DNA from: Sphingosinicella ginsenosidimutans
GTDB lineage: Bacteria > Pseudomonadota > Alphaproteobacteria > Sphingomonadales > Sphingomonadaceae
DNA length: 64,000 nt
Assembly (NCBI RefSeq): GCF_007995055.1
Contig: NZ_VOQQ01000001.1
Location: 2,525,001-2,589,000, forward strand
Reading direction: 5' to 3'
Position numbers and translations under genes: made by a program. Position 1 is the first letter of the stretch. Every line of letters begins with the position of its first letter. Positions 1 to 27,406 of this stretch are shown here, one piece after another. The notes beneath the pieces are model-generated. The model searched no databases. It saw only the letters and a program-made list of their open reading frames with translations, and was not told where the DNA came from.

Positions 1-285
1 AAGCGCCTGAAGTCGCGCCTCGATCACCCCTGGAAGCGCTGGAAGGTCAACGAGGAGGATTTCCGCAACCGCGACCGGCGTCCCGCCTATCTCGACGCGA
101 TGGCCGAGATGTTCGCGCATACCGACACGCGCTGGGCGCCTTGGACGGTGATCGACGGCAACAACAAGAAATCCGCGCGGATCGCGGCGCTGACCCGTGT
201 CGCCGATGCGCTGACCGAGGCATTTCCGGCCGAACCGCCGCCGATGAGCGAGGCGCTGGAGACACTGGCGCGAAGGCTCGGCTGA
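1..285 (+). CDS. Polyphosphate kinase 2 family protein, C-terminal part (5' truncated by window edge)
   Basis: The last 94 residues of a PPK2-type kinase, which transfers phosphate between polyphosphate and nucleotides in the cytoplasm. The reading frame is open from base 1 and stops with TGA at 283-285. Visible family features are the basic KRLKSRLDHPWKRWKV stretch, the EEDFRNRD segment, and the FAHTDT followed by APWTVIDGNNKKSARI block that is typical of the PPK2 C-terminus. The Walker motifs lie outside the window, so the PPK2 class (ADP, AMP or GDP preference) cannot be read. The next gene, greB, converges on it with a gap of 47 bases. Confidence 0.85.
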   Translation, partial: KRLKSRLDHPWKRWKVNEEDFRNRDRRPAYLDAMAEMFAHTDTRWAPWTVIDGNNKKSARIAALTRVADALTEAFPAEPPPMSEALETLARRLG

Positions 286-332
286 GCGGCGGATTCCTCG
301 GCCCGCGCGCAAATCCGTTTCGGCCCGATCTT

Positions 333-821
333 CTAGCCGCCTGGCGGATAGGCGATCGCGATCACCTCATAATCCTTGGTGCCGCCCGGCAGCCGCACGC
401 TCCGCACATCGCCCACCGTCGCGCCGCGCACCGCGCGGGCGAGCGGGGAATGCCAGCTGATCCGGCCGGCCCCGGCGTCCGCCTCGTCCTCGCCAACCAG
501 GGTCACGATCCGCTCATTGTCGTCCTCGTCGGCGAGCGTCACCGTCGCGCCGAACCAGACGCGCCCCTTGTCCGGCTGGAGCGCGGGATCGACGACCTTG
601 GCCTCCTTCATGCGGCGGGCGAGGAAGTTGATCCGGCGGTCGATCTCGCGCAGCCGGCGGCGGCCATATTGATAGTCGGCATTCTCCGAACGGTCGCCGT
701 TCGAGGCCGCCCAGGCGATCGTTTCGAGCAGCTTCGGCCGTTCGCCGGCGAACAGCGCCTCATATTCCTCGCGCAGCCGGCGGAAGCCCTGAGGGGTGAT
801 GTGATTGACGCGCTCCGCCAT
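333..821 (-). CDS. greB: Transcription elongation factor GreB
   Basis: A 162-residue Gre factor that enters the RNA polymerase secondary channel and stimulates cleavage of backtracked RNA. The N-terminal coiled coil carries the GreB-like string NGDRSENADYQYGRRRLREI (about residues 41-60), with the acidic tip residues that place Mg2+ at the polymerase active site. The C-terminal FKBP-like half holds ISWHSPLARAVRGATVGD. The arginine-rich REIDRRINFLARRM segment and the DYQYGRRRLREID spelling favour GreB over GreA. ATG start at 821. A REP-like palindrome lies just upstream, between greB and the lytic transglycosylase gene, both on the minus strand. Confidence 0.9.
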   Translation of the reverse strand: MAERVNHITPQGFRRLREEYEALFAGERPKLLETIAWAASNGDRSENADYQYGRRRLREIDRRINFLARRMKEAKVVDPALQPDKGRVWFGATVTLADEDDNERIVTLVGEDEADAGAGRISWHSPLARAVRGATVGDVRSVRLPGGTKDYEVIAIAYPPGG

Positions 822-20198: not shown

Positions 20199-21416
20199 AT
20201 GAACGCATCCGATCTCGTGATCGTCGGGGGAGGGCCGGCAGGGATGGTGGCCGGGCTGCTTTTCGCGCGCGCCGGCGCCCGGACGATCGTGGTCGAGAAG
20301 CATGGCGATTTCCTGCGCGATTTCCGTGGCGACACGGTCCATCCCTCGACGCTGGAGCTGATGCGCGAGCTCGGGCTCCTGGAGGCGTTCCTGAAGCGTC
20401 CTCACGACGAAGTCCGCGAGATCACGGCACGCGTCGCGGACCGGCGCATCGTCGTCGCCGATTTCAGCCACCTTCCGGTCGCCTGCAAGTTCATCGCGCT
20501 GATGCCCCAGTGGGACTTTCTCGATTTCGTGGCCGAGGAGGCGCGCCACTATCCAACCTTCGAACTCAGGATGAACGCCGAGGTGGTGGACCTGATCGAA
20601 GAGGGCGGCCGGATCGCCGGCGTGACGCTGAAGGACGGGACGCAGCTGCGCGCCCGGCTCGTCATCGCCGCGGACGGGCGCGGCTCGATCCTGCGTGACA
20701 AGGCCGGCTTCGCGAAGCGCGATCTCGGCGCGCCGATCGACGTTTTGTGGTTCCGCCTTCCCAAAGGCAGGGTCGCGCATGGCGAAACCGGCGGCACGTT
20801 CGGCGCCGGCACCTTCGTCGTCCAGTTGGATCGCGGCGATTACTGGCAATGCGCGTTCGTGGTCGCGAAGGGTGGCGCCAGCGAGGTCGAGGCGCGCGGC
20901 ATCGCGGCGTTTCGCGCCGATGTCGCCGGCGCCGCACCGGATCTGGCGGACGTCGTCGGCGAGCTTGAAAGCTGGGATCAGGTGAAGCTGCTTTCGGTCT
21001 CGCTCGACCGGCTTGAAACCTGGTCGCGTCCCGGGCTGCTCGCCATCGGGGATGCCGCCCATGCCATGTCGCCGGTCGGCGGCGTCGGCATCAACCTGGC
21101 GATCCAGGACGCGGTGGCGGCGGCGAATATCCTCGCCGCGCCGCTGTCGGCGGGCGAACCGGTCGATTCGCGGCTCGACAAGGTGCGTGCGCGAAGGCTG
21201 CTTCCCGTCCGAATCGTGCAGCGCGTCCAGAAGGCCGTGCACGACCGGATCCTCGCCCCGACGATCCACCGCCGGGCGGTTCTGCAGGACGTGCCGCTCC
21301 TGCTCAGGCTGTTCGATCGGCTGCCGCCGCTGCGCCGTCTTCCGGCACGCCTGCTCGGGCTCGGCATCCGGCGCGAGCACATCGCTTCGCCGGATGCCGG
21401 ACTGCGTCGGCCCTAG
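20199..21416 (+). CDS. FAD-dependent monooxygenase/oxidoreductase
   Basis: A 405-residue flavoprotein of the UbiH/PHBH class. The N-terminal dinucleotide-binding motif is GGGPAG (residues 10-15), the DG motif region is [18 protein letters not shown], and the second FAD motif is [16 protein letters not shown] (near residue 284). The middle domain should bind substrate, which cannot be named from sequence. No biosynthetic neighbours point to a pathway. Its stop overlaps the convergent icd gene by four bases. Confidence 0.85.
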
Positions 21417-25387: not shown

Positions 25388-26275
25388 GTGAGGCCGCCCC
25401 GCCAGCGGCGCGAGCGCCCCATGCGCGGCATCCCGCTTCGCGCGGTCGTCCCCAACGCCGTCACAGCGCTGGCGCTGTGCGTCGGGCTGACCAGCGTGCG
25501 ATTCGCGATCGCCGGTCAGTGGGAGAATGCGATCTACTCGATCCTCGCCGCCGCCGTCCTCGACGGCATGGACGGCCGGATCGCGCGGGCGCTGCGCGGC
25601 CAGACCCGGTTCGGGGCCGAACTCGATTCGCTGTCGGACGTGATCGCCTTCGGGGTCTCGCCGGCGATCGTGCTGCATTTGTGGTCGCTCCAGCATTGGC
25701 CCCGGATCGGCTGGGTGTTCGCGCTCGCCTTCGCGGCGTGCCAGGCGCTGCGGCTCGCCCGCTTCAACGCCCAGATCGATGTCGACGAACAGCCGCACAA
25801 ATCGGCCGGTTTCCTGACCGGCGTGCCGGCACCGGCGGGGGCGGGGCTGCTGCTGCTCCCGGTATATCTGTGGCTGGCGAGCGGCGAGCGCTGGACCTGG
25901 CTTCAGGATTACCGGCTGGTCGCGCCCTGGGCGGCGCTGATCGCCTTCCTTGCCATCTCGAACGTCGCGACCTTCTCCTGGGGCTCGCTGCGCCTCAGGC
26001 GCAACATCCGGCTGGAGGCGATCGTCATCATCGCGCTGCTGGGGGCGGCGGTCGCCTCGGCGACCTGGGAGACGTTGAGCTTCGTCGCGCTCGTCTATCT
26101 CGGGCTGATCCCGCTCAGCGTCATGAGCTATGCCCGGGTCAGGCAGCAGCGCGCCGCGACCGAGCCGCCGTCGATGCCAGCCGAACCGTTGCTGCCGCTC
26201 GCGGAGCCGAAGGCGCCGGCCAGAGGGCGGCGGCGATCAGCGCCCAATGCGAACGAACCGTCGTCTCCAGAATGA
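25388..26275 (+). CDS. pssA: CDP-diacylglycerol--serine O-phosphatidyltransferase
   Basis: Makes phosphatidylserine from CDP-diacylglycerol and serine, the substrate for the Psd encoded just upstream. The CDP-alcohol phosphotransferase motif is complete: Asp62-Gly63, Ala66-Arg67, Gly76, Asp80 and Asp84. About eight membrane helices follow the usual plan. GTG at 25388 with GAGGGCAGGGG upstream is the start; an ATG at residue 12 is possible. The C-terminal 40 residues are a hydrophilic Pro/Arg-rich tail overlapped by a small antisense ORF. Confidence 0.95.
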   Translation: MRPPRQRRERPMRGIPLRAVVPNAVTALALCVGLTSVRFAIAGQWENAIYSILAAAVLDGMDGRIARALRGQTRFGAELDSLSDVIAFGVSPAIVLHLWSLQHWPRIGWVFALAFAACQALRLARFNAQIDVDEQPHKSAGFLTGVPAPAGAGLLLLPVYLWLASGERWTWLQDYRLVAPWAALIAFLAISNVATFSWGSLRLRRNIRLEAIVIIALLGAAVASATWETLSFVALVYLGLIPLSVMSYARVRQQRAATEPPSMPAEPLLPLAEPKAPARGRRRSAPNANEPSSPE

Positions 26276-26330
26276 CCCCGAGCCCGACGAGCAGGGCGAG
26301 GAAGAACAGGGTCGATGCCAGATGAGCCAC
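26139..26330 (-). CDS. Small single-span membrane protein, candidate SOS-induced gene
   Basis: A 63-codon ORF with GTG start and AAGAAGGGA seven to eight bases upstream. Residues 5-22 (STLFFLALLVGLGVILET) form a convincing membrane helix, followed by a short polar stretch, a second weaker hydrophobic patch (WALIAAALWP), and an Ala/Arg-rich tail antisense to the end of pssA. No family is recognised. It lies directly behind a promoter-like sequence containing an exact GTTC-N7-GTTC LexA box. The 137-base antisense overlap with pssA lowers confidence, and the functional part may be only the first 40 residues. Confidence 0.5.
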   Translation of the reverse strand: MAHLASTLFFLALLVGLGVILETTVRSHWALIAAALWPAPSAPRAAATVRLASTAARSRRAAA

Positions 26331-26400
26331 AGCTTTTCCCTTCTTTTATCCACAGGCTGAAACCGAGCCGATCCGCTTTTGTTCCGCGAACCGGATCGCC

Positions 26401-26429
26401 CACATGTTCACTTTATGTTCCGTCGTCAA
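26401..26429 (-). promoter_or_regulatory. SOS promoter with consensus LexA operator
   Basis: On the minus strand TTGACG (26429-26424) is followed by a 17-base spacer and CATGTG (26406-26401). The exact operator GAAC-N7-GAAC (26420-26406, GTTC-N7-GTTC on the plus strand) fills the spacer and touches the -10 box, the classic place for a repressor. Transcription would start near 26394 and run into the small membrane ORF at 26330. The rpsB start is about 230 bases away in the other direction. Confidence 0.6.
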
Positions 26430-26558: not shown

Positions 26559-26647
26559 CGCGCCCATTCCACATGCGGGACCAACATACCGGTGCTCCGA
26601 AAGGAGTTTCTCGGCCCCGCAGAGGCATAACCGGAAGGAGAAAGACT

Positions 26648-27406
<759 letters not shown>

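Follow-up and report, generated by a model that had tools for sequence, protein, structure and literature searches.

We found that Sphingomonadaceae carry beside pssA a tiny gene whose product is probably a LexA-repressed, one-helix inner-membrane miniprotein that delays cell division during DNA damage. That this mini-gene is real and a member of the LexA regulon is almost certain. The best reading of its role would be an SOS-induced inhibitor of late division that resembles SidA in its action.

A LexA-type operator and a membrane-helix mini-gene

The window, by which we mean the whole 64,000-nucleotide stretch analysed, contains the features collected in Table 1. A sequence-only reading of this DNA had described an exact GTTC-N7-GTTC inside a minus-strand TTGACG-N17-CATGTG promoter, and exact sequence matching confirmed both the box and its setting. 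The proposed CATGTG element lies 17 nt from the −35 element and has one base in common with the LexA box; the operator thus overlaps the core promoter, as in the LexA (SOS) regulon of alphaproteobacteria. Box and start codon are 75 nt apart, and a transcript starting at 26394, as proposed, would have a leader of about 64 nt. The GTG-started ORF with one membrane helix that the same reading placed downstream of the box exists, with AGAAGGGA standing upstream of its start. Its antisense overlap with pssA is also present, but calling it partial was an understatement, as most of the mini-gene (137 of 192 nt) is shared. On the other side of the promoter, the rpsB leader (26570-26648) gave a sub-threshold match to Rfam RF01815 (rpsB sRNA; 25.4 bits against 40).

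Table 1 Features of the locus and candidate ORFs by dnaE (window coordinates unless a locus is named)
Feature	Coordinates	Strand	Remarks
pssA (CDP-alcohol phosphatidyltransferase)	25388..26275	+	convergent with the mini-gene
Membrane-helix miniprotein, GTG start, 63 aa	26139..26330 (stop codon included)	-	ORF list, conservation
DnaA-box sequence TTATCCACA	26346..26354	.	leader; gene strand TGTGGATAA, begins 24 nt upstream of start
Proposed −10 element CATGTG	26401..26406	-	weak match, position inferred
LexA-type operator	26406..26420	-	exact match GTTCACTTTATGTTC; gene strand GAACATAAAGTGAAC
−35 element TTGACG	26424..26429 (gene-strand order 26429-26424)	-	sequence match
rpsB (ribosomal protein S2)	26648..27406	+	divergent neighbour
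Candidate SidA-type ORF by dnaE	L256 1248-1361	-	box and one-span ORF
Candidate SidA-type ORF by dnaE	L260 3033-3137	+	box and one-span ORF
Candidate SidA-type ORF by dnaE	L262 1401-1505	-	box and one-span ORF
Candidate SidA-type ORF by dnaE	L270 1251-1349	-	box and one-span ORF

Within the window, GTTC-N7-GTTC was observed twice against 1.64 expected, the second copy lying on the minus strand at 20562-20576; by itself this count is at chance level, and the box alone is without significance. Genome-wide, the motif occurs 60 times, compared with 13 for the reversed pattern. We inspected the downstream ORFs at 17 sites, picked by eye as intergenic-looking, and scanned nine of the ORFs. Those behind the motif that matched above the NCBIfam cut-off were lexA, which is preceded by two overlapping boxes, and pdeM, which encodes a damage-response nuclease. 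The matches to uvrA and a PA0069 radical SAM gene were strong but below the cut-off, with both genes cut by the end of the stretch, and those to ImuA-like and mraZ-like genes were also below it. An S24-peptidase-type and an exonuclease-type protein matched weakly, and egtB, which is no expected SOS gene, stands behind the motif as well. Given the genome-wide enrichment and the presence of the motif before lexA, pdeM and others, GTTC-N7-GTTC is very likely the operator that LexA would bind in this genome.

We found no family model for the miniprotein, which the sequence-only reading had described as lacking a recognised family. An NCBIfam scan of the window protein returned no match at E 0.01, its best Pfam match was YuiB at 14.6 bits (cut-off 27), Pfam searches over 24 miniprotein members reached a best E of only 0.011, and a profile search of the PDB gave 0 matches at E 1. 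Judged by title and the start of the abstract, none of the open-licence papers listed deals with the mini-gene. AlphaFold2 predicted helices at residues 2-27 and 29-36 of the window protein, with block mean pLDDT of 86-99 over residues 1-40 and an uncertain tail (60-65 by blocks). The consensus of 24 miniprotein sequences, nearly all from the same genus, reads MxHLAAxLFF...TVRxxWxEIxAALRGE and is followed by a variable Arg/Pro/Ala tail. The part that follows the helix has a mean net charge of +6.1 and the part that precedes it one of 0.07, and the tail is the more positive side in 96 of 97 miniproteins, which suggests a tail-in topology (tail in the cytoplasm); this basic composition may be due in part to the antisense overlap with pssA.

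In-frame constraint on the mini-ORF appears mild, and its tail little constrained. Over 190 pairs, pN/pS in the helix part was 0.62 in frame compared with 0.89 and 1.30 in the shifted frames, and it was 0.89 in the tail; these are near-saturated comparisons over a gene that largely overlaps pssA, and the set left out L019, L020, L021 and L050. Judged by its sequences, the miniprotein changes fast: profile A1, built from the same genomes, matches 24 of 60 genomes (the source genome included) and 2 of 32 genera. We rejected paralogues, as nine further A1 matches (L222-L230) come without the box and helix ORF. One A1 match on a second contig of genome G024 (L231) does have both.

Conservation at pssA loci and analogous loci elsewhere

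Using pssA as the anchor, we collected 30 loci (L001-L030) from the source and related genomes, in which 55 of 60 genomes matched, and a further 20 stretches around pssA; of these, L050 is from the same genus and the other 19 represent other families of the order. To these we added named loci, the best 80 of 582 found. L001-L030, L050 and the 80 named loci, minus the duplicates L104, L105 and L156, make 108 unique loci. A locus was scored positive when an exact box was followed within 200 nt by an ORF of 24-130 aa with an N-terminal hydrophobic stretch, the start codon being chosen by the script. An exact box lies within the scored region of 104 of the 108 loci, six of them of the RmuC type described below. 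The sequence-only reading had taken the lack of a conserved start or helix in relatives as grounds for refutation; this was not what we saw, as 97 of the 108 loci keep the exact box and a mini-ORF with an N-terminal membrane helix; as the loci are kin, these counts are non-independent. When the same test was applied on either strand to 59 of the 60 genome boxes (the focal one included and the window box at 20562 left out), a hydrophobic mini-ORF followed 2 of the 58 others, so the conserved layout stands above chance. Positives among the named loci (69 of 77 unique) include Sphingomonas, Sphingobium, Novosphingobium, Sphingopyxis, Blastomonas, Zymomonas and Erythrobacter-type genera. The sequences thus indicate that a putative operator-in-promoter and a small membrane-helix ORF are both conserved across Sphingomonadaceae.

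The layout is also uniform in detail. Of the 97 positives, 93 have a single hydrophobic stretch in the mini-ORF and the other 4 have two; the ORF is 60-93 aa long in 93 of the 97, and the chosen box has the same orientation in 93. TTGAC stands 4-7 nt upstream of the gene-strand box in 84 loci and is absent at the box in 13; in the 84, the first base after the box is always A and the second is T in 78%. With TTGAC at this spacing, LexA would cover the promoter core. Five further loci have a mini-ORF by eye: L180, where boxes and ORF are present and were missed by the script, and L019, L024, L050 and L170, the four of 102 usual-layout loci with an inexact box (one mismatch in L024 and L170). In six others (L142, L148, L151, L153, L176 and L178), the box instead precedes an ORF of 446-447 aa, which is RmuC in L176, the one locus run against Pfam; rpsB was not found in these six. 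In five of these Sphingorhabdus-type loci, the box lies 22 nt past the pssA stop.

Other families of the order hold a similar arrangement elsewhere. Of 23 best-match loci, 10 (L272, L274, L275, L276, L278, L280, L281, L286, L287 and L290) have a box and a one-span ORF opposite a gene of the Ppx/GppA type, several with two boxes; L294, one of the 23, includes little or no upstream DNA, and the Ppx/GppA type is based on Pfam for L031. These ORFs are about 52-66 aa, longer in L281. Upstream of dnaE, a box followed by a one-span ORF of 33-38 aa occurs in 4 of 20 regions from other alphaproteobacteria, 18 of which hold the N-terminal part of dnaE (Table 1). In Caulobacter, dnaE is CC1926 (PMC1839093). 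By hhalign, no similarity was detected between the miniprotein and the four ORFs upstream of dnaE (probability 0.6%); together with a further value of 2.5%, this led us to reject homology to other-family ORFs. The place just upstream of dnaE is the sidA position, sidA (CC1927) lying beside dnaE in Caulobacter. We infer that one functional slot may be filled by fast-changing miniproteins. Ancestral linkage to rpsB was likewise rejected: among 20 regions around rpsB (19 from other-family alphaproteobacteria and one from the same family; 115 genomes searched), one weak row with box and ORF appeared (L249, helix score 1.76), which we judged to be chance.

DnaA-box sequences in the leader and upstream of mraZ

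A new observation is that an exact DnaA box lies between the LexA box and the start codon in 25 of the 97 loci, in both orientations. There are 26 such sites in 9,485 nt, 12 in one orientation and 14 in the other, whereas 18,319 nt of rpsB-side sequence contain 2. In 200 first-order Markov resamplings, the mean was 0.155 loci and the maximum 1. With one mismatch allowed, the counts were 39 of 97 loci against 4.3 in resamplings of the same kind, and 3 of 86 matched rpsB-side segments. Conversely, an exact site is absent from 72 of the 97 loci, and in 58 there is none even with one mismatch, and the loci are kin, so all these counts represent non-independent events. The leader box in the window is one of nine TTATNCACA in the genome, a pattern that is not enriched genome-wide (9 versus 14 for the reversed pattern).

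In 13 loci, 12 from the source genome or its genus and L023 from another, the site begins exactly 24 nt before the start codon, and in many of these a similar GGGGATAA-type ribosome-binding stretch adjoins it. This fixed position beside a similar stretch makes shared descent or a role in RNA possible for the DnaA sequence in those loci. Of the remaining 12 DnaA loci, L111 has the site in the same orientation, and in the other 11 it is reversed and its distance varies.

A similar pair lies elsewhere in the source genome. At L186 (G000:C1:602300-604300), a LexA box at 713 and a DnaA box at 740 stand upstream of an mraZ-like gene (24-560, minus strand), with the LexA box and TTATCCACA 12 nt apart. 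The region upstream of the mraZ-like gene contains TTATCCACA in 22 of 22 genus genomes examined, 12 of which also have an exact LexA box close to it; of 8 loci from other families, 2 have a DnaA box there and 3 a LexA box. Another of the six TTATCCACA in the genome, at position 1044 of L188 (G000:C1:1627043), is flanked by a divergent ORF and by a MutY-like gene with HhH-GPD and NUDIX domains.

One tentative explanation for these pairs, for which we would give rather less than even chances, is a checkpoint integrator: LexA, reporting damage, and DnaA, reporting replication state, would converge on the promoter of a membrane division inhibitor. With the same two kinds of site also present upstream of mraZ, the first gene of the division and cell wall cluster, these two sensors would gate sphingomonad division from two ends. 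A precedent for such joint control is the E. coli uvrB promoter, LexA and DnaA being described as repressing SOS genes together (PMC6015884), although it differs from the focal promoter in being that of a repair gene, in another class and with another operator.

A candidate SOS division inhibitor and its alternatives

The mechanism that we propose begins with LexA bound between the −35 and −10 elements, where it would keep a promoter of conserved anatomy off. RecA-driven cleavage of LexA, as in the known pathway, would then free the promoter, with DnaA perhaps a second input through the leader box in part of the family. The miniprotein would insert in the inner membrane with its tail probably in the cytoplasm, and its membrane helix together with the short conserved W-x-E-I-x-A-A-L helix would dock on the septal wall-synthesis complex. 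The target would most likely be FtsW, held inactive as published for SidA and YneA, and the C-terminal tail would be only weakly constrained.

Small membrane inhibitors induced by damage in other bacteria are reported to act on FtsW or FtsN (PMC4211646, PMC13396833). SidA of Caulobacter crescentus is described as a 29-aa, SOS-driven inner-membrane division inhibitor (PMC4211646), and the Caulobacter LexA box consensus is given as GTTCN7GTTC (PMC12700426). The miniprotein would resemble it as an apparently SOS-driven, tiny inner-membrane protein of an alphaproteobacterial host with the same box consensus. The suggestion that it is SidA-like holds in kind, both being tiny one-span proteins with an SOS box before the gene; by hhalign, as given above, the miniprotein showed no profile similarity to the four ORFs at the sidA position, and it is mostly longer. 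It exceeds SidA in length at every locus except L020, whose natural 28-aa, SidA-sized version is little more than the helix; the pssA/rpsB neighbourhood also differs from that of sidA. DidA of Caulobacter, with 71 aa and one predicted span, is damage-induced and overlaps another annotated ORF, as the miniprotein does, but its induction is reported to be SOS-independent, through DriD (PMC4211646), whereas the miniprotein promoter carries a LexA box. YneA (Bacillus), SosA (Staphylococcus) and ChiZ (Mycobacterium) are described as small membrane proteins that are induced by damage and block division at a late stage; YneA binds FtsW, and the other two are predicted to do so (PMC13396833). YneA and ChiZ carry a LysM domain, whereas the miniprotein has no domain match. 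The YneA membrane helix alone is said to localise without blocking division (PMC13396833), so a bare helix need not suffice. SulA, which acts on FtsZ (PMC13396833), is comparable as the occupant of the slot of SOS division inhibitor; SulA (PF03846) was not found in the source genome (G000), with the E. coli control positive, nor was it among the Pfam matches of the miniprotein set, and with no SulA in the genome this slot looks open.

The strongest alternative, which we nevertheless consider unlikely, is a peptide of the type of TisB and DinQ, the SOS-induced membrane peptides of E. coli (PMC8145889, PMC3567139), that would depolarise or perturb the inner membrane and slow growth generally with no specific divisome target. 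Regulation and single span would be the same, a membrane toxin could just as well take the form of a hydrophobic one-span protein, and read-through from pssA could serve as the antisense of a type I antitoxin. Against this, the conserved helix is hydrophobic throughout and leads into the conserved TVRxxWxEIxAALRGE segment. An Rfam scan for known RNAs over the mini-gene gave one match, far below threshold (RF02468, 24.4 bits against 55).

Somewhat less probable again is an SOS-induced membrane protein with another target, such as a protease, secretion or phospholipid synthesis, with pssA and psd next door. The pssA gene is a neighbour in the loci examined and antisense overlap could lower its expression, but this linkage is partly by design, all loci having been found through pssA, and in L050 psd lies between pssA and the mini-ORF. 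The overlapping fraction of the mini-ORF ranges from none in 9 of 97 loci to the whole, with a median of 0.26, which argues against an antisense role; single values are rough, those above 1 denoting an ORF wholly inside the script-extended pssA frame. We also rejected the mini-ORF as a by-product of antisense pssA coding, since the overlap varies and L018, at 0.15, still keeps the helix and motif.

That the box instead controls rpsB-tsf, changing ribosome synthesis upon damage with the small ORF incidental, is very improbable: the divergent rpsB does share this region, at 148-916 nt from the box among the loci listed, but the spacing of TTGAC and box points away from it in 84 of 97 loci, the ORF is under in-frame constraint, and in other families the box and one-span ORF lie opposite ppx (10 of 23), with no rpsB found in about 4 kb around L031, L039 and L049, the ppx-type loci first seen. 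A chance box before a chance hydrophobic ORF would agree with the box count in the window, but conservation in 97 of 108 loci against 2 of 58 in the background leads us to reject it as extremely unlikely.

The SOS-induced division inhibitor is thus the reading that we favour for a mini-gene that is tiny and overlooked, and that is present in Sphingomonas and many relatives, usually at the same chromosomal spot. The known inhibitors SulA, SidA, YneA, SosA and ChiZ vary between bacterial groups, so each group's own must be found, and the mini-gene offers a concrete candidate in a family where Sphingomonas, Novosphingobium and Zymomonas have tractable strains. These results suggest that the pair of operator and one-span mini-ORF can reveal such genes when searches by sequence do not. 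The sites described here raise the possibility that division in this family may be under joint control by LexA and DnaA.
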